64,000 nt of DNA from Elusimicrobia bacterium HGW-Elusimicrobia-1 (GTDB lineage Bacteria; Elusimicrobiota; Endomicrobiia; PHAN01): NCBI GenBank assembly GCA_002841695.1, contig PHAN01000008.1, forward strand, positions 1-64,000. Direction: 5' to 3'. Below the pieces are notes generated by a model. That model was not told the DNA's origin. It worked only from the letters and a program-made list of their open reading frames with translations, and ran no database searches. Made by a program: the position numbers and the translations under genes. This document shows, one piece after another, positions 30,100 to 43,735 of this stretch (its first letter is position 1; every line of letters starts with the position of its first letter).

Positions 30100-31788
30100 A
30101 TGCCCAAAGCCAAAATATCCGAAATCGAGGCCGTAAGATTAAACTTTAAGCCGGTTTTGCCGGCGGTCTTGAAAAAAGGCCCCGCGCGGATAAAACCGAA
30201 ATTCGGCAAGCCGACGGAAAGCGTTTCTGACAGCGACGACCTCAGGAAACTTTTTCCGAACACTTACGGCCTGCCGACGGTAAGTTTCATCGCGGGCGAC
30301 AATACGCCGGTGTCGAAAAAAGCCCTCAAAGTCGGCGTGGTGCTTTCCGGAGGGCAGGCGCCCGGCGGACACAACGTCATCGCGGGGCTTTTCGACGGCT
30401 TGAAAAAAGCCAATCCCAAAAACAAACTCATCGGTTTTCTGGGCGGGCCGTCGGGAATACTCGACGACAAATGGCGGGAAATAACCTCGCAATATCTTGC
30501 CGGTTACAGAAACACCGGCGGATTTGATATTATTCAGTCCGGCCGCACCAAGATAGAAACGCCCGAACAATTCGAGCGGACGAAAAAAGTTTTGAGCGCC
30601 GACGAAATAGACGCTCTCGTCGTCGTAGGCGGCGACGATTCCAACACCAACGCGGCTCTTTTGGCCGAATACTTTAAAAAAGAAAATATGGACGTAAGCG
30701 TAATCGGCGTTCCCAAAACCATCGACGGCGACCTCAAAAATGATTGGGTCGAGACGTCCTTCGGCTTCGATACCACCACAAAAATCTATTCGGAACTCGC
30801 GGGCAACATCTGCCGCGACGTCAATTCGGCCCGCAAGTATTGGCATTTCATCCGCCTGATGGGAAGGAGCGCCTCTCACATAACTCTTGAAGTCGCGCTC
30901 AAAACGCGGCCCAATATAACCCTCATCGGCGAGGAAGTGCTTGACAAAAAGATGACACTCGCCGAAGTCGTCGACGGCATAGCCGCCGTGATAGCCGCGC
31001 GCGCGGGCGACAAAAAAAACTTCGGCGTGATACTCGTTCCGGAGGGCTTGATTGAGTTTATTCCCGAGATGAAAGAACTCATAACCGCCCTCAACGACGT
31101 TATGGCCGAAAACGAATCCGCCGTCAACGCGATACCCTCGGCCGACGAAAAAAAGAATTTCGTCTGCTCGCGCCTTCCCGAGAATCTCGCCGCTCTTATG
31201 AAGTCCCTGCCGCCAATAATCGCCTCGCAGCTTCTCATCGACAGAGACCCGCACGGAAACGTTCAGGTGTCGCAGATTGAGACGGAAAAACTGCTCATCG
31301 AAATGCTTAAAGTCCGCCTTTCCGAAATGAAAAAAACCGGCGCCTACGCGGGAAAATTTTCCGCCATAACGCACTTCTTCGGCTACGAAGGCCGCTGCGG
31401 AGCCCCGTCGAACTTCGACGCGAACTACACGTACGCGCTGGGATATAACGCCGCGGCGCTTGCCTTAAACGGTCTTACGGGCTATATGTCGTCCGTGCGA
31501 AAACTCGTCAAGGAATCTTCGACGTGGATCGCCGGCGGCGTGCCACTGACGACAATGATGAATATCGAAAGAAGAAAAGGCAAAGAGAAACCTGTCATCA
31601 AAAAGGCCCTTGTAAAACTCGACGGCGCTCCTTTCGCGGCGCTCCTTAAAAACCGCGACGAATGGGCGATTACGGAAGGGTACGTTTATCCGGGGCCGAT
31701 ACAATACTTCGGACCGGCGGCCGTGACGGATATGACGACAATCACGCTTAAATACGAACAATCCACGAAAAAGGAGATCTCAAGATGA
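30100..31788 (+). CDS. pfp: Pyrophosphate-dependent 6-phosphofructokinase
   Basis: Reversible phosphofructokinase of the long, plant-like PFP subgroup, 562 residues. The nucleotide/PPi site shows VVLSGGQAPGGHNVIAG, VVVGGDDSNTNAALLAEY (the GGDDS form with the second Asp that favours PPi over ATP), the catalytic PKTIDGDLKN, and MGRSASHITLEVA. Using PPi saves ATP and is common in anaerobes. Start at ATG 30100 after GAGGAT; a further upstream start at 30067 would overlap the aldolase stop. Its TGA overlaps the ATG of the next gene. Confidence 0.95.
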   Translation: MPKAKISEIEAVRLNFKPVLPAVLKKGPARIKPKFGKPTESVSDSDDLRKLFPNTYGLPTVSFIAGDNTPVSKKALKVGVVLSGGQAPGGHNVIAGLFDGLKKANPKNKLIGFLGGPSGILDDKWREITSQYLAGYRNTGGFDIIQSGRTKIETPEQFERTKKVLSADEIDALVVVGGDDSNTNAALLAEYFKKENMDVSVIGVPKTIDGDLKNDWVETSFGFDTTTKIYSELAGNICRDVNSARKYWHFIRLMGRSASHITLEVALKTRPNITLIGEEVLDKKMTLAEVVDGIAAVIAARAGDKKNFGVILVPEGLIEFIPEMKELITALNDVMAENESAVNAIPSADEKKNFVCSRLPENLAALMKSLPPIIASQLLIDRDPHGNVQVSQIETEKLLIEMLKVRLSEMKKTGAYAGKFSAITHFFGYEGRCGAPSNFDANYTYALGYNAAALALNGLTGYMSSVRKLVKESSTWIAGGVPLTTMMNIERRKGKEKPVIKKALVKLDGAPFAALLKNRDEWAITEGYVYPGPIQYFGPAAVTDMTTITLKYEQSTKKEISR

Positions 31789-33245
31789 AGATCAACGAAA
31801 AGGTTTTGGCAAAAACAATCGCCCGATGCAAAGAGCGCGGAATAATCATTCCGACTTTCGCCCAGCAGAAAGATCCCTCGAAAGTTCCGCAGAAGATAAA
31901 AGACAAACTCAAAACAATAGGGCTTCAGGACACGCACCCCTTGAATCTCTTTCGCATAACATGGAAAAATAATCCCAAAGAAAACGGCGGAGACGGGCTC
32001 TACGGGGACGTCAACTATCTGGAAATTCCCTCGGCCATATCGGGCGTGAAAGCCCGAATCGTGGGCATAGTAGGTAAATGGTTCCCGACGGGCGCGCACA
32101 AAGTCGGGGCGGCTTTCGGGTGCCTGGCTCCGCGTCTCGTCACAGGAAACTTCGATCCCGCGACGCAGAAAGCCGTGTGGCCCTCGACGGGAAACTACTG
32201 TCGCGGCGGAGCGTTCGACTGCGCGCTTCTTGCCTGCGACGCGATAGCGATACTCCCTCAGGAGATGTCCAAAGAGCGTTTCGAGTGGCTCAAAGAAATA
32301 GGCGCCAGCGAGATTTTCGCCACGCCCGGCTGCGAGTCCAACGTCAAAGAAATATACGACAAGTGCCACGAGCTCAGGAAAGAGCGCGGTGATAAAATCG
32401 TAATATTCAACCAATTCGACGAGTTCGGAAACACAATGTGGCACTACGAAGTCACGGCCTCGGCAATGGAAGAAGTTTTCAACAAAATCAAAGGCGCGCG
32501 CGGTCGCTTCTCGGCATATGTTTCGGCCACCGGCTCGGCGGGCACCATAGGCGCCGGCGAATATCTCAAAAAGAAATTCCCGACGATGAAAATAGCGGCC
32601 ACCGAGGCGTTGCAATGCCCCACGCTGTATCTAAACGGCTTCGGCGGACACAGAATCGAGGGCATAGGAGACAAGCACGTGCCGTGGGTTCACAACGTCC
32701 GCAATACCGACAACGTCGTAGCCATCGACGACGAATTCACAATGAGAGTGCTGCGCTTATTCAATGAGGAAGCCGGCAAAAAGCGTCTCCAGAAGGCCGG
32801 GGTTTCCAAGGCCGTCGTCGAAAAACTCCAACTTCTGGGAATATCGAGCATCTGCAATCTGATCGCGTCCATCAAAATGGCCAAGTACTACGAGATGAAC
32901 GAAAACGACGTGATATTCACGGTCTTCACCGACTCGGCCGCCATGTATCTGTCGCGTCTGGATGAACTCACCAAGGAACGCGGCCAATATACCGAGGAGA
33001 ACGCGGCTATCGACATTGAACACTGCCTCGGTGGCGTGGGAATCGACTGGCTTAAGGAACTCAGCTACCAGGACAGGAAAGCCATTCATAATCTGAAATA
33101 TTTCACTTGGGTGGAACAGCAGGGAAAGACGGTCGAGGAGATAAACGCCCTCTGGGAACCGGAATTCTGGGACAAGATTTTCACGCAGATCCCCGAATGG
33201 GATCGTCTCATAGAAGAGTTTAACAAGAAAACGGGATTGGCGTAA
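31785..33245 (+). CDS. PLP-dependent fold-type II enzyme of the ygeW-like cluster
   Basis: A 486-residue enzyme of the tryptophan-synthase-beta/cysteine-synthase fold. The probable Schiff-base Lys is in FPTGAHKVGAAFG, the cofactor phosphate and substrate loops in PSTGNYCRGGAFDCALLA and SATGSAGTIGAGEYLKK. It is longer than threonine dehydratase or YgeX (about 400 residues) and lacks the usual YgeX segments, so I do not call it diaminopropionate ammonia-lyase. From memory, similar "PLP-dependent protein, beta subunit" genes lie next to ygeW, ygeY and carbamate kinase in other anaerobes. A deaminating or lyase role on the amino acid released in that pathway is inferred. Strong site AAAGGAGA and ATGA overlap with pfp. 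Confidence 0.8.
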   Translation: MKINEKVLAKTIARCKERGIIIPTFAQQKDPSKVPQKIKDKLKTIGLQDTHPLNLFRITWKNNPKENGGDGLYGDVNYLEIPSAISGVKARIVGIVGKWFPTGAHKVGAAFGCLAPRLVTGNFDPATQKAVWPSTGNYCRGGAFDCALLACDAIAILPQEMSKERFEWLKEIGASEIFATPGCESNVKEIYDKCHELRKERGDKIVIFNQFDEFGNTMWHYEVTASAMEEVFNKIKGARGRFSAYVSATGSAGTIGAGEYLKKKFPTMKIAATEALQCPTLYLNGFGGHRIEGIGDKHVPWVHNVRNTDNVVAIDDEFTMRVLRLFNEEAGKKRLQKAGVSKAVVEKLQLLGISSICNLIASIKMAKYYEMNENDVIFTVFTDSAAMYLSRLDELTKERGQYTEENAAIDIEHCLGGVGIDWLKELSYQDRKAIHNLKYFTWVEQQGKTVEEINALWEPEFWDKIFTQIPEWDRLIEEFNKKTGLA

Positions 33246-35179: not shown

Positions 35180-36376
35180 ATGACAGCCAAAATCGACGTA
35201 AACAAGGCGCTCGCAAGGATCGCCGAAATCAAGACACGTTTTTTCAACAAGGATTTCCTTCTGACGTGGATGTACAAGGCCGATGAACTTGAAGTCGTTC
35301 TTTCCCTGGCCGAAGTGCTCAAGGAACTCCACGCGCAAAATGTTTCGCTTAAAGTTTTCGACACCGGCATCGCCGTGTCGAACTTCCGCGACAACTCCAC
35401 GCGCACGAGATTTTCGTTCGCATCCGCCTGCAACCTTCTGGGACTTGCCGTGCAGGATCTCGACGAAGGCAAATCGCAAATCGCCCACGGCGAAACCGTG
35501 CGCGAGACGGCCAATATGATATCGTTTCTGACGGAAGCCGTAGGCATCAGAGACGATATGTTCATCGGCAAAGGCCATACCTATATGAAAGAGGTCTCGG
35601 ACGCCCTCGACGACGGATATAAAAACGGCGTGCTTAACCAGCGTCCGGCCATAGTAAACCTGCAGTGCGACCTCGACCACCCCACACAGGCGATGTCGGA
35701 CCTGCTCTATATCAAAAACCATTTCGGCGGATTCGACAAACTCAAAGGCAAAAAAATAGCCATGACGTGGGCGTACTCGCCTTCCTACGGCAAACCGCTT
35801 TCTGTGCCGCAGGGCGTGATAACGCTTATGTCGCGTTTCGGGATGAATGTCGCGCTGGCCTATCCCAAGGGTTACGAACTCCTGCCGGAAACCCTCGAAG
35901 TTTCAAAAAAACACGCCAAGGAATCAGGCGGCGAATTTTCCGCATCGAATTCCATGGACGAAGCGTTCAGAGACGCCGACATAGTGTATCCTAAGTCGTG
36001 GGCTTCTTACGAAGTCATGAAAAAAAGGACGGGGCTCGTCGAAAAAGGCGACAAACAGGGACTTTCCGACCTTGAAAAACAGTGCCTCGCGGAAAACGCC
36101 ACTCACAAGGACTGGACTTGCGACGAAGCCAAGATGAAACTCACCAAGGGCGGCGAAGCCGTTTATATGCACTGTCTGCCCGCCGACATTACCGGCGTTT
36201 CGTGCAAAGAGGGCGAAGTTTCGGCGGGAGTTTTCGAGAAATACCGCATCGGAACTTACAAAGAAGCGGGTTTCAAGCCGTTCGTCATAGCCGCTATGAT
36301 GATGGCCTGCCGCTTCAAGAATCCGTCGGCCGTTATCTCGGATTTGCTGAAAAAAAACGCTACGCGCGTAAAATAG
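35180..36376 (+). CDS. ygeW: Knotted carbamoyltransferase YgeW
   Basis: A member of the ornithine/aspartate carbamoyltransferase superfamily, about 398 residues. The carbamoyl-phosphate motif is FRDNSTRTRFSFASA; QRPAIVNLQCDLDHPTQAMSD, MTWAYSPSYGKPLSVPQG and YMHCLPADITGVSCKEGEV match E. coli YgeW almost word for word. It probably runs phosphorolysis of an N-carbamoyl amine, giving carbamoyl phosphate for the carbamate kinase at 38615. ATG 35180 matches the N-terminus of known YgeW; a TTG at 35099 after repeat-like GGAG units would add 27 unrelated residues. Confidence 0.93.
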   Translation: MTAKIDVNKALARIAEIKTRFFNKDFLLTWMYKADELEVVLSLAEVLKELHAQNVSLKVFDTGIAVSNFRDNSTRTRFSFASACNLLGLAVQDLDEGKSQIAHGETVRETANMISFLTEAVGIRDDMFIGKGHTYMKEVSDALDDGYKNGVLNQRPAIVNLQCDLDHPTQAMSDLLYIKNHFGGFDKLKGKKIAMTWAYSPSYGKPLSVPQGVITLMSRFGMNVALAYPKGYELLPETLEVSKKHAKESGGEFSASNSMDEAFRDADIVYPKSWASYEVMKKRTGLVEKGDKQGLSDLEKQCLAENATHKDWTCDEAKMKLTKGGEAVYMHCLPADITGVSCKEGEVSAGVFEKYRIGTYKEAGFKPFVIAAMMMACRFKNPSAVISDLLKKNATRVK

Positions 36377-36529
36377 ACGGCTGGCGCCGGCCCCCGATTA
36401 TTCCAGCCGCCCGTCTTATCCCGGCCGCGACCGGAGCGGACATTTTGCTCCCGACGGAAATCTGTAACGCCGGAGCCGACGACCTGCGAAAATCCGCAGG
36501 CGGCGCCGCGCAGATAGATTTTAATAAAA

Positions 36530-37591
36530 ATGGAAAAACTGTTGCCTTTGGCGTTACCGGACGAATGGGAAGAATACCGTCCACAGGAAATAAACAATAA
36601 CACACTAACCATATGGTTCGGACATAAAAATCGGTTTCTGCCCCTTCTCGCTTTACCGGACGACCCTAATTTTTCGCAAGACCTGCGCAATCCTCAAACG
36701 GCAAAATATGATTACAATGCCCGTTTGGATATTACCGATTATATAGTCGAGCGCGCCGCCGGGGGATTTCTTGAAAGTTATCTGCTGCCCATCCCTGCGC
36801 AGTGTTCCACGACTCCTGCATTGGGCGCGTCTGACATTCTATCTTGCGACTGGAGAAAACAATTCGACGAGATGGGTTTTACCGCCGAAAAAGGAACATT
36901 TTTAGGTGAAGAGGCCGTATTTATTATCGGTAAAAACGGTGAAAGAACTTGCCAAGCAGTCAGAATCAACGCCTTTATTATCGGCGGAGACGTACTATTT
37001 TATACAACCTTGTCCCCGAGAAATACCCCGATTCATTCCGCCGTTTGCGAGGTGACAAAAACAAGTCATCAATGGATTACATATTGCAAATGCCAATATT
37101 GCAGACCCCATCCGCGATGTTCGACTCTGGAAAAAGAAGGGCTTGTTCACTCGGAGAAAGTCAGGCCATTGTTGGAATACGTTTTTTCAGAAATCAGAAA
37201 ACGGTTGACATCAAAAAATCCAACGCAGGAGGCATGGGATATACGAAACGAAGGAGCATCATATTCAGAATATGACTGCTCCAAACTTACGCGGACGATA
37301 TATCCGTTTTTACCGCGCACGGCGCGAGAACAATACGATTATTTCAAAAATCGCGGCGCCATAATTTCTTCGCGATATGACCTCCATGAAGGGGATTTGA
37401 TATTTTTTAAGGACGGGGCGGAACAAATCAAGCATGTGGGGTATGTGGTTTCCAATATAGACGGAAACATTCAATTTATTCATTCAACCGCCAAGAAGGG
37501 AGTGAGGGATTTTGACTGGAACACAACTGGCCCCGAGGGAAACAAAAACAAATACGGTGAACTGAATTTTGCGGGGGGAGGAAGGCCGTGA
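36530..37591 (+). CDS. NlpC/P60-type cysteine hydrolase
   Basis: 353 residues. The C-terminal part (about 220-330) has the NlpC/P60 layout: catalytic Cys in YSEYDCSKLTRTIYPFL, GDLIFFKDGAEQIKHVGYVV with the His, and FIHSTAKKGV. The N-terminal 200 residues are not recognised and hold a Cys/His cluster (KCQYCRPHPRCSTLEKE). No signal peptide is visible, yet NlpC/P60 enzymes usually cut cell-wall peptides. The gene is more AT-rich than its neighbours and splits the ygeW-carbamate-kinase group. Its stop overlaps the GTG start of a gene for an exported beta-propeller protein, which could be its partner or inhibitor. Confidence 0.75.
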   Translation: MEKLLPLALPDEWEEYRPQEINNNTLTIWFGHKNRFLPLLALPDDPNFSQDLRNPQTAKYDYNARLDITDYIVERAAGGFLESYLLPIPAQCSTTPALGASDILSCDWRKQFDEMGFTAEKGTFLGEEAVFIIGKNGERTCQAVRINAFIIGGDVLFYTTLSPRNTPIHSAVCEVTKTSHQWITYCKCQYCRPHPRCSTLEKEGLVHSEKVRPLLEYVFSEIRKRLTSKNPTQEAWDIRNEGASYSEYDCSKLTRTIYPFLPRTAREQYDYFKNRGAIISSRYDLHEGDLIFFKDGAEQIKHVGYVVSNIDGNIQFIHSTAKKGVRDFDWNTTGPEGNKNKYGELNFAGGGRP

Positions 37592-38517
37592 AAAAAATTA
37601 TTTTGCCGATTGTTTTGATGTCTTGCGCGGCGGTTATGCCGGTTTGCTCGGCTGACCCGGTAAAAATATCTTTCGAAAGAGACGGATATATCTGGACAAC
37701 CATATCAAACGGCGATAAGTCCGCGCGGATTTGCAAGGGCTGTGACTCTGATATATCCCCCGACGGGAATAAATTGGTGTTCACTTATGATACCTCCAAG
37801 GGATATGCGTCCATAAACAGAAAAATCGCCGTCGTTGACTTGAATTCAGGAAAAATCAATATATTAACTTCTATCCCTGACAATAATAGTTATGGTCCCA
37901 TATGGTCGCCCGACGGAAAACAAATAGCGTTTATGCATCGGACTAACGACGGATGGGATGTGGGAATTGTAAACAGTGACGGCGACAATTTTCACCTGCT
38001 TACTCATGGCACGGGAAACAGCTGGAATATGTTCTCTTCTCCCGCATGGTCGCCCGACGGAAAATATATATTGTTCCATGATATGGAGTATCTGTACAAA
38101 ATAAATCTTGAAGGTGAAATATCCATGGCGGAAAAAATAAAAGACATTCTGGATTTTTCAACATACAGCATATGCGACGGGACAAGATTTTTACTGTCGA
38201 AAGATGAAAGATATCTGCTGATTGATCCGCCGGACGTAAGTCGTTTCGGCATGAAGGGTCTTACGGGCCCCGTTTATGCGCTCGTTGTTTATGACAGAAA
38301 GACAAAAATCGCCGCCAAAATATCTCCCGATAATTTATACGCTCATCGCCCGGACTGGGTGAACGAAAGAGAGATTATTTTCGAAGGGACAACGGAAGAG
38401 GATTTTGCGCGGATGGGCGAATGGAGGGCGCCAAGCAACATATATAAAATTTCCATTGACGGCAAAGACCTCAAATTGCTGATAAAAAACGGCGGGTCGC
38501 CATCCTGCTCGAAATGA
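37588..38517 (+). CDS. Exported TolB/PD40-type beta-propeller protein
   Basis: 309 residues with a signal peptide (KIILPIVLMSCAAVMPVCS). Repeated blades with the PD40 signature follow: CDSDISPDGNKLVFTYDT, GPIWSPDGKQIAFMHRTNDG and PAWSPDGKYILFHDMEYL, each with DG(K/N) turns. Structure like the TolB C-terminal propeller, but no TolB N-terminal domain. The GTG start (37588) overlaps the stop of the NlpC/P60 gene by four bases. An interaction with that enzyme in the periplasm is inferred from the overlap only. Confidence 0.8.
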   Translation: MKKIILPIVLMSCAAVMPVCSADPVKISFERDGYIWTTISNGDKSARICKGCDSDISPDGNKLVFTYDTSKGYASINRKIAVVDLNSGKINILTSIPDNNSYGPIWSPDGKQIAFMHRTNDGWDVGIVNSDGDNFHLLTHGTGNSWNMFSSPAWSPDGKYILFHDMEYLYKINLEGEISMAEKIKDILDFSTYSICDGTRFLLSKDERYLLIDPPDVSRFGMKGLTGPVYALVVYDRKTKIAAKISPDNLYAHRPDWVNEREIIFEGTTEEDFARMGEWRAPSNIYKISIDGKDLKLLIKNGGSPSCSK

Positions 38518-38614
38518 ATGCGTCCCGTCAGGTAAATTCAATGACCCAAAATTCTGTAAAAATACAAATCTGTCATCCCCAATGTTCCTATATTATTTCA
38601 CGGAGAACGCATAA

Positions 38615-39556
38615 ATGGGAAAAACAATCGTAGTCGCCATCGGCGGAAACTCGCTTATCAAGGACGATAAGCATATGTCGGTGCCGGATCAGTACAAAGC
38701 CGTGTGCGAGACGGCGGCTAATCTTGCCGGTCTCATAGAAGCCGGCAACCGCGTAGTCGTAACTCACGGCAACGGCCCGCAGGTCGGCTTCATACTCCTT
38801 CGCTCCGAGCATTCCAGAGGGCTTATGCACGAGGTTCCTCTTGAGGTTATAGTAGCCGACACTCAGGGAGCCATCGGCTACCAGCTGCAGCAGGCGCTCC
38901 AGAACGAACTCTGGAACCGTAAAATCAGAAAAAATGTGGTGACCGTGGTAACGCAGGCGCTCGTCGATAAAACCGATCCGGCTTTTCAGAAGCCGTCGAA
39001 ACCCATCGGGCAGTTTTATTCGGCCGAGAACGCCAAAGAGAGAATGGAAAAAGAGAAGTGGACTATGGTCGAAGACGCAGGGCGCGGATGGCGCCGCGTG
39101 GTGCCGTCGCCCAAACCGTCGCGCATAATAGAAAGCAAGGCCATTAAAAATCTGGTGTCGGAAGACGTGGTGGTGATTTCCGTCGGAGGCGGTGGAATTC
39201 CCGTAGTCGCCGACGACAAAGGCGCCCTCTCGGGCGTGGCCGCCGTTATCGACAAGGATCTGGCGTCGGCCGTCCTGGCAAAGGAAATCGGAGCCGATAT
39301 GCTCGTCATATCGACGGCCGTCCCCAAGGTTTATCTTAACTTCGGCAAGCCGGATCAGAAGTCACTCGACAAGATTACAATCAAAGAAGCCAAACAATAT
39401 ATATCCGAAGGTCACTTCAAACCCGGCTCAATGCTTCCTAAGGTGCAGGCGTGCGTTTCATTTCTGGAGGCGGGAGGAAAAGAGGCGCTCATAACTATGC
39501 CTGAAACCCTGACCGAAGCGCTCGAGGGCAAAAACGGAACTCTGATAGTAAGATGA
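38615..39556 (+). CDS. arcC: Carbamate kinase
   Basis: Makes ATP from carbamoyl phosphate and ADP, 313 residues. The sequence shows VVAIGGNSLIKDD, VVTHGNGPQVGFILLRSE, SVGGGGIPVVADDKG, LVISTAVPKVYLNFGKP, and VQACVSFLEAGGKEALIT, all hallmark segments. In the E. coli ygeW cluster the equivalent is yqeA. Linked in function to ygeW upstream, although two AT-rich genes lie between. GGAG precedes the ATG. Confidence 0.95.
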   Translation: MGKTIVVAIGGNSLIKDDKHMSVPDQYKAVCETAANLAGLIEAGNRVVVTHGNGPQVGFILLRSEHSRGLMHEVPLEVIVADTQGAIGYQLQQALQNELWNRKIRKNVVTVVTQALVDKTDPAFQKPSKPIGQFYSAENAKERMEKEKWTMVEDAGRGWRRVVPSPKPSRIIESKAIKNLVSEDVVVISVGGGGIPVVADDKGALSGVAAVIDKDLASAVLAKEIGADMLVISTAVPKVYLNFGKPDQKSLDKITIKEAKQYISEGHFKPGSMLPKVQACVSFLEAGGKEALITMPETLTEALEGKNGTLIVR

Positions 39557-39629
39557 ACTGCTCGCGGATTCGGATTTTTTAATACATAGCGCTCGCGATA
39601 TATTCATATCCAAAGAGGGGGATGAAAAA

Positions 39630-40397
39630 ATGGGGTTTAAAAAAATCGCGTATGGTTTGTTGTTTTTGTGGGGGATGTCGCTTGCGTCGCGGCTTTACGC
39701 TCCGCCGCCCGGATGGGTAGAAACCAGACCGACAATTCAGGAAGAGATAGCGGAATACGAAAAAAAGCGCGTTCTCTCGCCTCGCGCCTCCGCGCTAAAA
39801 AATATTTTTGAGGAATTAAAAATAAATCCCGCCTCGCCGGCGCTGCAAGCCGAGTATCTGCAATATTTCCCCGAGAATCAAAGGGACTTTGACGCTATAT
39901 TCGGGTATGATATGGATGCTCCCGGATGGCTTGAGGGCGCGAAGGAATTATATAGAAGCGGCAATGAGTATATCCTGATTCTTGAAAAGTTCAATCGGCG
40001 ATATATGCCTTATATCTGTAAGATATCGCTTGATATTGCTAAAGAGAGTTCAGCTTTTGAGGTTGACAGATACGGCGAACTTAGAATGTTAATGACGGGT
40101 TTACTGTTTAAAAATCCCGAAATTTTCCGGAAAAAACTTTTTTCGCTCGCTCCGCCAGAACGCGCCGCCGCTATTCGCTTTGCGATACAGCACATATATG
40201 GCGAGCAATTTCCCGGATTCTTTGCAAAATTGCGCAAGGATGGCGATAACGAATTCATTTCTCTTATCGGAGATGCCATAAAGTGGGGCGTGGGGTTGGA
40301 TATGGGATGTTCTTGCAGATTGTTACCGCCCGACGCCACGAGTTATATAATAAATATATCAAGCGACACCGCCGAAGGCGGATGTGAACATCACTAA
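39630..40397 (+). CDS. Unknown exported protein
   Basis: 255 residues with a signal peptide (FKKIAYGLLFLWGMSLASRL). The rest is helical and not recognised: PPPGWVETRPTIQEEIAEYE near the N-terminus, a middle part FNRRYMPYICKISLDIAKES and a Cys-rich end (DMGCSCRLLPPD, EGGCEHH). The pattern of helices could be a divergent HEAT or TPR solenoid. The gene is AT-rich and has a GAGGGGGA site upstream. It belongs to the accessory stretch after carbamate kinase and has no clear operon partner. Confidence 0.6.
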   Translation: MGFKKIAYGLLFLWGMSLASRLYAPPPGWVETRPTIQEEIAEYEKKRVLSPRASALKNIFEELKINPASPALQAEYLQYFPENQRDFDAIFGYDMDAPGWLEGAKELYRSGNEYILILEKFNRRYMPYICKISLDIAKESSAFEVDRYGELRMLMTGLLFKNPEIFRKKLFSLAPPERAAAIRFAIQHIYGEQFPGFFAKLRKDGDNEFISLIGDAIKWGVGLDMGCSCRLLPPDATSYIINISSDTAEGGCEHH

Positions 40398-40430
40398 TCA
40401 GAGCCAGCGCGATAAACGGAGTACTGCGGC

Positions 40431-41375
40431 ATGAAACAAAAAAATATTTTCTCGTCGGAAACAGTCAAAGAGATAGAAGGTATCGGCCCCAAGACCGGCA
40501 AAGTCCTTGCCGATGCCGGCATTAAAACGCTGGAAGATTTCCGACGGGCGGACATAAAACGACTTAGTAAAACGACGGGGATTGCCGGGCGGGTTTTGTC
40601 GGCATGGAAATCGTCAGCGGTATTGCAGCGGATTATCGGCATAGACCGTCAGATAGCGGAAGTCCTCGTCAAAAACAACATACGTGATTTAATTGTCTTG
40701 CGCAATGCTAATCCGAAGAAAATTCTCGAAATAATCAAGTCCGCCCGCGAACCGAAAGACAAGTACAACATCATTCCCGACACTTACACGAAAATCGTTA
40801 CTCTTGAAAAAGTTTTGATGTGGCAGTGCTCCGTTAACACAAGTCATATTGCGCCCGGCGGATTTGGCGCTCCCGCCAGATTGTCCGCCGACGGCTATAT
40901 AAACATTTGGATAATCAGAGAATATGAAACGAAGTTTTCCACATTGGGTTCTATTTTTATCGCGGGCAGACATATTTACACTTTAGAACCGCCGGATCGC
41001 AACAATGCCGCTACCGACAATTATCTTACAGCCGGAAGAATTTTTCCGGGCAGTTACTCGTCCTTTGTCAGAACAGACGGCACCCGCGGTTGGAGGATAG
41101 AATTAAAAAATGTCCCCGCGAGGAGCGATATCCAAATTCATAAGGGCAGTCATCCTGAACACACGTGGGGGTGTATTTTGCCCGGAATGGACAAAGGGAA
41201 TGATAGAGTGTATGATAGTGACACTGCGATGAAAACTATTAAGGCCCAAGTGGAATCGTCGGGGACGAATCCCGATATTACGGTTAATGTTTGCGGCGTG
41301 CCCATAAGTATAATCAATGAGCCGCCCACTCAGCCGCCGTCCACGCCGCCGACGTCTTCCGGCGGCGGGTGGTAA
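40431..41375 (+). CDS. Helix-hairpin-helix domain fused to DUF5675-like domain
   Basis: 314 residues. Residues about 8-110 contain two helix-hairpin-helix units (IEGIGPKTGKVLADAGIKTL and IIGIDRQIAEVLVKNNIRDL), similar to DUF4332. Residues about 155-280 resemble DUF5675 (STLGSIFIAGRHIYTLEPPD, GRIFPGSYSSFVRTDGTRGW, IHKGSHPEHTWGCILPG), a domain found in phage and secreted proteins, in which a His and the HxxxxTxGC part may be functional. The end is Pro/Thr-rich (PPTQPPSTPPTSSGGGW). No signal peptide. A DNA-binding-like HhH module joined to this domain is unexpected. Function unknown; it is followed by the isoprenoid-like gene. Confidence 0.7.
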   Translation: MKQKNIFSSETVKEIEGIGPKTGKVLADAGIKTLEDFRRADIKRLSKTTGIAGRVLSAWKSSAVLQRIIGIDRQIAEVLVKNNIRDLIVLRNANPKKILEIIKSAREPKDKYNIIPDTYTKIVTLEKVLMWQCSVNTSHIAPGGFGAPARLSADGYINIWIIREYETKFSTLGSIFIAGRHIYTLEPPDRNNAATDNYLTAGRIFPGSYSSFVRTDGTRGWRIELKNVPARSDIQIHKGSHPEHTWGCILPGMDKGNDRVYDSDTAMKTIKAQVESSGTNPDITVNVCGVPISIINEPPTQPPSTPPTSSGGGW

Positions 41376-41380
41376 AAAAT

Positions 41381-42493
41381 ATGAACGGCGGACATTATTT
41401 CAACTCCGTCGCAAAAGAACAGGTTTTGGCCGTTCTTGAAAAGAACGGAATGCTCCCGCCCGATAAAACATACGAACGGGTCGTCAAAAACAAAATCGCG
41501 CTGGGTCAAAAACTTTGGGATACGGTTATCGGTGATGCCATAGGTCAAGAATTGCGTGAATTTTGTGAGACCTCAATAAAAGAGCGGGGGAGATTTTATC
41601 ATATCGAACATATCCCAAGATACGCCGCATTCGGACACGATATAGCGGATTGCTTTTGCCGTTTATTCGGGGTCTCGGAAAATACGGCGAGCGATATCGC
41701 CGCCGCCGGAGCGTTATTGAATTCTTACGCCGCCCTTTTCGACAAAATCTGTGATGATTACACCGAATTGCGTCCGCATCTCATGCGCCGGTGTTCGCCT
41801 GAAATTTTGTCCCGTGCGGCGTCGCTCACGCTATCGGACACAAAACCATTTTTTAGATTAAAAGAAAACGACGCTCCGTTGGTCAAAATCGTTGTTCTTT
41901 TGATTAGAGAATATTTCAACAGGTGTGCGGCTATACTTGATTGTTCGGGAGGCGATAAAATCCGCGCGGAATTTCAAAACACGGTTTCGCTACTTTATAA
42001 ATCGGAATTAACGAGTATAAATCTCACATTCGCCGCGAGAATGTCCGGGAAAAGTGTATATAAGATTTTACGGAATAAGAGCTCTTTGCTTATATGGCTA
42101 TTGGTTTTGCCTTGTTTATCGCCTCCCGCAAGGAAGTGCGGCGGAAAATTAAGCCGGCTAAAGGAAGCGGTTCTGGATTTGGGCGACGTATTTTGGATAT
42201 TGGATGATATTGTGGACTCCTCGGAGGATTTGAGTTGCGTCAGATGGGGTTATCCGACATTGCAATTTACAGGGCGAGTTTTTTTAGAAAACAGAGATTG
42301 TGCGTCGATTTTAGACGATATGCTTAATCGCGGCATAATATCATCGGCAGCCGAAAATATGTGCATCAAATATCGAAACGCAAAAAGAGAGTTGGAAAAG
42401 ATGACACACAACATCGTTGATTTTGATAAAATATTTCTCCCATGGTTCAGGATGTGGATTGATTCTACGGGTTGCGCATATTTTCGGGAGTAA
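41381..42493 (+). CDS. Class I isoprenoid-synthase-like protein
   Basis: 370 residues, mostly alpha-helical. Two Asp-rich segments resemble class I terpenoid/prenyl-diphosphate synthases: LFDKICDDYTEL (about 119-130) and LGDVFWILDDIVDSSED (about 267-283), the latter like the second DDxxD motif. A true first DDxxD is not perfect. Overall identity to known prenyl synthases appears low; it fits the uncharacterised class 1 isoprenoid biosynthesis enzyme group. The ATG at 41381 is preferred; GTG 41369 overlaps the previous stop. AT-rich like its neighbours. A made-to-order lipid or terpenoid product is possible but unproven. Confidence 0.6.
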   Translation: MNGGHYFNSVAKEQVLAVLEKNGMLPPDKTYERVVKNKIALGQKLWDTVIGDAIGQELREFCETSIKERGRFYHIEHIPRYAAFGHDIADCFCRLFGVSENTASDIAAAGALLNSYAALFDKICDDYTELRPHLMRRCSPEILSRAASLTLSDTKPFFRLKENDAPLVKIVVLLIREYFNRCAAILDCSGGDKIRAEFQNTVSLLYKSELTSINLTFAARMSGKSVYKILRNKSSLLIWLLVLPCLSPPARKCGGKLSRLKEAVLDLGDVFWILDDIVDSSEDLSCVRWGYPTLQFTGRVFLENRDCASILDDMLNRGIISSAAENMCIKYRNAKRELEKMTHNIVDFDKIFLPWFRMWIDSTGCAYFRE

Positions 42494-42499
42494 TTGAAA

Positions 42500-43735
42500 A
42501 TGAAAAAAATCCTCGGATACCGCTGTCTGGACTGCGGCAAAGAAATAAAATACGAGCCGCTCAGATACCTCTGCGACTGCGGGGGGAATCTCGACGTGGT
42601 TTACGACTACGCCGCGATAAAAAAAACGCTGACCCGCCGGTCGCTTGAAAGCAATTATCGTCTTGACCACTGGCGTTACCTCGACGTCCTGCCGCTCGCA
42701 AATCTCGACAAAATACCCAATCTTCAGGTCGGATGGACACCCGTTTATAAAACCCCGCGATTAGCCAAGGCGCTCGGCGCAGGGCAGGTTTTCATAAAGG
42801 ACGATTCGCGCAATCCTTCGGCGTCTTTCAAAGACAGAGCGTCGTCGGTGGCTCTGGCTTACGCCCGCGAAAACGGCGTAAAAAAAATCGTGGCCGCTTC
42901 CACCGGCAACGCGGGCGCGGCTCTGGCTTGCATGGCGGCAAGCGTGGGTTTTCCGTGCGTGATAATAGTTCCTAAATCCGCGCCCAAGGCAAAGATTGCC
43001 CAGCTTATGAACTTCGGCGCGACGGTCATCGCCGTCGACGGCATGTACGACGACGCTTATGACCTCTCCGTAAAAGCCACTCAACAATTCGGATGGTACA
43101 ACCGCAACACCGGATATAACCCCATTACCCGCGAAGGCAAAAAAACCTGCGGACACGAAATCTGCGAGCAGTTCGGATGGACGCCGCCGGATTATGTCCT
43201 TGTGTCCGTGGGCGACGGCAACATTATAAGCGGCATCTGGAAAGGTTTCAAGGATATGAAAGCGCTGGGGCTCGTCGACAAACTGCCGAAGATGGTCGCC
43301 GTACAGTCCGAAAAATCGAACGCGGTTTCTCTGGCGTACGCCACCGCCGCGAAAAATCCTTCCTCAAAAATCGAAATAATGCCGGTTCACGCCTCGACTA
43401 TCGCCGATTCAATATCCGTCGATATGCCCAGAGACGGCATCGCCGCCGTGCGCGCGTTGATTGAATCCGGCGGATTCGCCGTGGAAGTCGCCGACGAGGA
43501 AATCATAGCGGCGATATCCGTCTGCGCACGCGAAACCGGCGTATTTCCGGAGCCGGCAGGCGCGGCATCCGTCGCGGGACTCAAAAAAATCGCATTCCGC
43601 ATAAAGGATTCCGAAACGGCTTTGTGCGTAGTCACCGGTTCGGGGCTTAAAGATATCGCGGCGGCATCCAAATCGGTCGGCGAGCCGCCCGTGATAGCGC
43701 CCACCGTCGACGCCCTCTCGAAACTCCTCCAATAA
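42500..43735 (+). CDS. thrC: Threonine synthase
   Basis: PLP enzyme converting O-phosphohomoserine to threonine, about 411 residues. The N-terminus has a small zinc-ribbon-like part (YRCLDCGKEI, LCDCGGNLD) typical of one ThrC class. The Schiff-base Lys is in NPSASFKDRASSVAL, the phosphate loop in ASTGNAGAALACMAA, and the Gly-rich VSVGDGNIISGIWKGF follows. Start ATG 42500 preferred over TTG 42494. Codon use returns to the GC-richer style of the genome core. Closeness to the PLP enzyme at 31785 is not a sign of shared function. Confidence 0.9.
   Translation: MKKILGYRCLDCGKEIKYEPLRYLCDCGGNLDVVYDYAAIKKTLTRRSLESNYRLDHWRYLDVLPLANLDKIPNLQVGWTPVYKTPRLAKALGAGQVFIKDDSRNPSASFKDRASSVALAYARENGVKKIVAASTGNAGAALACMAASVGFPCVIIVPKSAPKAKIAQLMNFGATVIAVDGMYDDAYDLSVKATQQFGWYNRNTGYNPITREGKKTCGHEICEQFGWTPPDYVLVSVGDGNIISGIWKGFKDMKALGLVDKLPKMVAVQSEKSNAVSLAYATAAKNPSSKIEIMPVHASTIADSISVDMPRDGIAAVRALIESGGFAVEVADEEIIAAISVCARETGVFPEPAGAASVAGLKKIAFRIKDSETALCVVTGSGLKDIAAASKSVGEPPVIAPTVDALSKLLQ

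Follow-up and report, generated by a model that had tools for sequence, protein, structure and literature searches.

Genes and composition of the locus

We analysed a window of 64,000 nucleotides from contig C8 of the genome G000 (2.06 Mb in 25 contigs, 96.9% complete). The core genes of the locus, all on the forward strand, are ygeW, encoding a knotted carbamoyltransferase (35180–36376; TIGR03316, 5e-192, above the cut-off), arcC, encoding carbamate kinase (38615–39556; TIGR00746, 1.3e-122), and thrC, encoding threonine synthase (42500–43735; TIGR00260, 3e-57). Genes A (36530–37591) and B (37588–38517) lie between ygeW and arcC, while genes C (39630–40397), D (40431–41375) and E (41369–42493) lie between arcC and thrC, again on the forward strand. 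The six reading frames that the initial annotation had described around carbamate kinase were thus all recovered.

YgeY and YgeW, which both pass their curated profile cut-offs, are encoded upstream of A–E and, together with a carbamate kinase, belong to the reductive uric-acid pathway that is known from E. coli (PMC12507026). The host gene group here likewise has YgeW, YgeY and carbamate kinase, whereas A–E lie outside that cluster and do not figure in relatives' gene order. Beside ygeY and ygeW, a 486-residue PLP-dependent enzyme (31785–33245) is, by NCBIfam, cysK-like and not clearly a YgeX, and may point to a variant of the pathway.

The GC content of A, B, C and E is 44–46% and that of D is 48%, against 53.4 ± 2.8% for the other window genes (n = 42, at least 200 aa). 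A, B, C and E are each lower in GC than all 42 comparison genes, D is second lowest, and GC3 and codon adaptation are likewise low in A–E. The AT-rich island of the initial annotation therefore holds for these five genes but not for arcC, which at 54.5% GC is ordinary for the window. The AT-rich genes form two segments split by a core gene, not one block, and a single island is ruled out by the core composition of arcC together with the differing histories of the two insertions described below.

Two accessory insertions around arcC

The sister species G001 is the sole comparison genome from the same genus and is fragmented (340 contigs, 89% complete); the next-nearest relatives of G000 belong to other families of the class. 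The first insertion, carrying A and B (approximate limits 36377–38590), is absent from G001 according to both flank alignment and the gene order of its contig C318, where ygeW and arcC are adjacent across a gap of ∼97 bp, too small for A–B. The second, carrying C, D and E (approximate limits 39557–42493), is absent from G004, G010 and G013, three genomes of a different family in the same class. In these, a transcarbamylase gene (43% identical to YgeW), arcC and thrC are consecutive with nothing between them, the arcC–thrC gap being 1–68 bp.

The extra genes are not gained and lost as a unit. In G001, the stretch ahead of thrC holds a gene related to C at 63%, an in-frame 3′ remnant of E and two other genes, and neither A–B nor D. 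Because the relative of C and the remnant of E stand before thrC there without D, while the ygeW–arcC interval is empty, A–B and C–D–E have separate histories. The gene orders therefore indicate that A–E are two independent accessory insertions in a conserved transcarbamylase–arcC–thrC group, and that the gene content ahead of thrC also varies. An earlier proposal of cargo inserted between core genes is upheld as to insertion, by the adjacent core genes in the three class relatives and, for ygeW–arcC, in G001, and has to be amended from one island to two insertions. No tRNA lies within 36–44 kb and no integrase was seen among the frames examined. Even without any reading of what the genes do, the locus cleanly shows a single core gene flanked by two accessory insertions that are independent of each other.

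The first 7 bp of gene E lie within the end of D, and 6 bp separate its own end from thrC. Its product is an orphan with no N-terminal export signal by hydropathy, no notable match in Pfam, NCBIfam, PHROG or PADLOC, and no homologue in plasmids or viral contigs. It had been annotated as isoprenoid-synthase-like, for which the Asp-rich motifs KICDDYTE and FWILDDIVD and the predicted helices speak; against it, the only named PDB match, octaprenyl-diphosphate synthase, is non-significant (E 0.47) and Pfam gives none. The AlphaFold model is all-helical and of low confidence (pLDDT 39.5, not usable), so that E is at most weakly compatible with the class I isoprenoid-synthase fold. The one match to E among genome contigs (L002, Desulfatirhabdium) spans 29 residues on the strand opposite a dehydrogenase frame and was set aside as fortuitous. 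The remnant in G001 (L061:10361-10489, minus strand of contig C88) directly precedes thrC and has kept the reading frame, so that E or a related gene stood before thrC ancestrally in the genus.

Gene C encodes a protein with an export signal by hydropathy. We found no notable match for it in Pfam, NCBIfam, PHROG or PADLOC, no relative in plasmids and none in the rest of the phylum beyond the genus. Its description as an exported protein with no known relatives thus stands outside the genus, though not within it, where contig C88 of G001 holds the 63% relative. The dN/dS of C is 0.24, compared with 0.03–0.16 for the flanking core genes; it changes more quickly than they do, yet is under purifying selection.

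The region upstream of thrC in G001 has further features. Upstream of the relative of C, the 5′ end of thrC is present as a second copy of 37 codons terminated by a stop codon (L061:14562-14672, minus strand of C88); its protein is closer to the thrC product of the window than to that of G001 itself, pointing to a scar of recombination between congeners. An exported 461-residue protein inserted before thrC (L061:10486-11871) matches peptidase-MA weakly and has an AMPK1_CBM/CBM48 glycogen-binding-like domain at its C-terminus. Between it and the relative of C, a 421-residue protein (L061:12347-13612) looks ATP-grasp-like by eye, with no Pfam match.

The A family and its two-gene cassettes

Protein A comprises an N-terminal Cys/His-rich domain (about residues 1–224; 36530–37201) and an NlpC/P60 domain (residues 242–326; 37253–37507; PF00877, 1.6e-9, 38.1 bits against a cut-off of 23), with candidate catalytic residues in the motifs YDCSK (Cys), KHVGY (His) and FIHST (third residue). 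The initial annotation of an NlpC/P60 enzyme lacking a signal peptide is confirmed, since the Pfam match exceeds the curated cut-off and no N-terminal export signal is seen by hydropathy. The closest PDB likeness of the catalytic domain is to the murein endopeptidase MepS/Spr (2k1g, 8xud); MepS, however, is an exported lipoprotein, whereas A has no signal peptide and adds the 225-residue N-terminal domain. The AlphaFold model of A (pLDDT 46.9) gave no significant fold match and is not usable.

The N-terminal domain, ∼225 residues long, is common to A and two further proteins, A′ in G000 and A″ in G001, with 41–56% identity to A; for the domain of A″ the identity is 35–41% (E 1.5e-33 over residues 1–223). 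Residues H169, C173, H180, C186, C188, C191, H194 and C197 are invariant in all three. Pfam yields nothing for the domain even at E 10 and the PDB no convincing match, and among 341 genomes of the phylum we found no relatives outside the genus. The three proteins are small (353–396 aa), and hydropathy shows no N-terminal export signal in A′ and A″ either.

A′ is 60% identical to A overall and 67.5% identical in the NlpC/P60 part, whereas the C-terminus of A″ has no detectable similarity to that of A. Among solved structures, the closest to this part of A″ are hedgehog N-domains (E 0.003), the M15_3 match being weak (0.025) and below the Pfam cut-off. The motifs SRHYSGNAVDL and PHIHIEY reproduce the His…Asp…His spacing of the M15/hedgehog zinc fold, so that this domain is weakly M15/hedgehog-like.

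Each family member is followed by an exported partner. B is a PD40/TolB-like β-propeller with a hydrophobic N-terminus by hydropathy (PF07676, 5.4e-14), in agreement with its annotation as an exported β-propeller, and its start overlaps the end of A by 4 bp (GTGA). The second pair, A′B′, lies on contig C10 of G000 and is 60% and 53% identical to A and B; it is preceded by cysE and then a small FMN-binding-type gene, and a membrane-pyrophosphatase-like gene comes after (names from sequence reading). The third, A″B″, lies on contig C111 of G001, away from ygeW–arcC. At all three junctions (GTGA, ATGA and TAA-A-ATG) the partner starts within the stop codon or 1 nt after it, and B′ and B″ likewise have hydrophobic N-termini by hydropathy. 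B and B′ are PD40 propellers beside NlpC proteins, whereas B″ is an unrelated 187-residue protein beside the M15-like A″.

The counterpart sites in the other genome lack the cassette or probably lack it. The ygeW–arcC site of G001 is empty, and at the A″B″ site in G000 the neighbouring 678-residue gene is followed by an unrelated gene. The A′B′ counterpart in G001 is probably empty as well: the stop codon of the preceding gene is followed by sequence that G000 has downstream of B′ (33 bp at 88%, E 2e-4), after which the G001 contig ends. Comparing the three cassettes, we found neither shared borders, ends or flank sequence nor target duplications. On these alignments A–B is one copy of a movable, genus-specific two-gene cassette, and this N-domain cassette is the new element of the locus.

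Wall enzymes of this kind might simply serve the cell itself, with A and D processing or recycling its own peptidoglycan, B and C acting as exported regulators or sensors, and the pairs being ordinary lineage-specific duplicates. Cell growth commonly involves NlpC/P60 and M15 enzymes, the NlpC domain of A is closest to MepS/Spr, and TolB-like propellers are ordinary envelope proteins. We nevertheless regard self-directed remodelling as unlikely, given the lack of signal peptides in A, A′, A″ and D, the swap of the catalytic domain together with its partner, the presence and absence at three sites and the low GC of A–E.

Wall enzymes, partners and a possible role in antagonism

Protein D, which had been described as an HhH–DUF5675 fusion, matches both families: a helix-hairpin-helix (HhH)/DUF4332 N-terminal region (HHH_5, PF14520, 3e-13; 40458–40607) precedes DUF5675 (PF18925, 7e-21; 40911–41255) and a Pro-rich tail, with no N-terminal export signal by hydropathy. 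A His and a Gly-Cys are kept in ten DUF5675 sequences (IHxGNxxxDTxGCIL) in a manner reminiscent of the active site of YkuD-type L,D-transpeptidases; a DUF5675 profile search of the PDB gave nothing credible. D shares this IHxG…GC motif with DUF5675 proteins (PHROG 1501), from which it differs by the HhH N-terminus. D is probably a second signal-less wall enzyme, encoded behind the exported protein C.

DUF5675 is frequent in phages (PHROG 1501; Vibrio phages) and the NlpC domain of A weakly matches endolysin and tail PHROGs, so A and D could be endolysin-like genes stranded from prophages or phage satellites. We consider this origin improbable. No structural phage genes lie nearby, no full-length relative of D was found in phages or plasmids, and A has no homologue in plasmids or viral contigs, its phage-labelled matches spanning the NlpC domain only and belonging to proteins that, unlike A, carry signal peptides. 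Three coupled pairs at three sites are also unlike random decay, and the purifying selection on C argues in part against it.

A better fit is offered by polymorphic toxin systems, in which a conserved N-terminal trafficking domain is joined to an exchangeable C-terminal toxin and followed by an immunity gene (PMC7073777). Like the TANFOR-domain toxins of Bacteroidetes (PMC7073777), the A family combines a common N-terminal domain with an exchanged C-terminal enzyme (NlpC in A and A′, M15-like in A″) and a coupled partner, directly downstream, that changes with the enzyme, although this swap rests on three members in two genomes and its statistics are thin. Presence and absence at the genus level are also shared. 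The A family, known here from sequence, differs in the small size of its proteins and in an N-domain with no Pfam counterpart. A second likeness is to the NlpC/P60 and M15 effectors of type VI secretion systems (T6SS), which have periplasmic immunity proteins; as in these, A is a probable peptidoglycan hydrolase that lacks a signal peptide and has an exported partner encoded behind it.

We therefore favour, at about even chances, the reading that the A- and D-type proteins are polymorphic peptidoglycan-hydrolase effectors with exported immunity proteins. A would be made in the cytoplasm, its common N-terminal domain serving as a loading or export tag, and the exchangeable C-terminal domain (NlpC/P60 in A, an M15/hedgehog-type zinc peptidase in A″) would cut the peptidoglycan of a competitor. 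The translationally coupled partner would stay in the periplasm of the producer and inhibit the enzyme it is paired with, the β-propeller acting against NlpC and the unrelated small protein against M15. D, with its His and Gly-Cys as in L,D-transpeptidases, and exported C would form a second pair working by the same logic. Counting against this reading, a β-propeller is unusual as an immunity protein, C occurs without D in G001, and no export machine was found among the markers searched. The T6SS marker TssC/VipB (PF05943) is absent from G000 and six related genomes, G001 included (control positive), the tail-sheath gene of phages and contractile injection systems (PF04984) is absent from G000 and G001 (controls positive), as is the VirB4 ATPase (PF03135), and Pfam found none of the usual T6SS marker or adaptor domains.

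These absences, and the missing signal peptide, would also suit release in the manner of a bacteriocin, with the same toxin–immunity pairs but with A freed by lysis and its N-domain binding a receptor for uptake, following pesticin or colicin logic, rather than being injected. We rate this as a slim prospect, since the many Cys and His residues of the N-domain resemble a metal site of the cytosol, we recognised neither a TonB-box nor a translocation region, and no lysis gene was seen.

The initial annotation had also considered a new envelope or defence system. The defence half found no backing, as no PADLOC model matched A–E better than E 0.022. Two of the five proteins are probable signal-less peptidoglycan hydrolases, and the way the cassettes behave suggests antagonism more than defence against phages. 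Within the effector reading, we hold it possible, if rather doubtful, that the family is a new class of polymorphic antibacterial effectors, in which an undescribed Cys/His-rich N-domain is carried by two-gene cassettes moving between unrelated sites without T6SS, contractile or VirB4 machinery, and hence by an unrecognised delivery route. If the proteins are indeed effectors and immunity proteins, the N-domain would offer a handle on an antibacterial wall-cutting family and a pointer to its delivery machine in a lineage where none of the known ones was found, and a β-propeller inhibiting an NlpC/P60 enzyme would be a useful new inhibitor type.

At the end of contig C48 in G001 (L059:1-366), an HhH domain is fused to the second half of amidase_2, beside PreA-like and M20-hydrolase-like genes; this site, too, adjoins genes of nucleobase-catabolism type. 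The fusion, which may be decayed as it lacks the first half of the amidase, sits behind a membrane-anchored protein of 158 residues. A second series, of an exported partner and then an HhH–wall enzyme, is thus possible (C–D and the C48 pair).

Two other features of G001 concern its accessory sites. The contigs of L061 and L078 both end within or close to one and the same repeat (TGAGACCGTTGAAAAA...), whose family occurs at accessory sites, and directly behind A″B″ a multi-zinc-ribbon protein is encoded (L057:4329-4694), possibly a third gene of the cassette.
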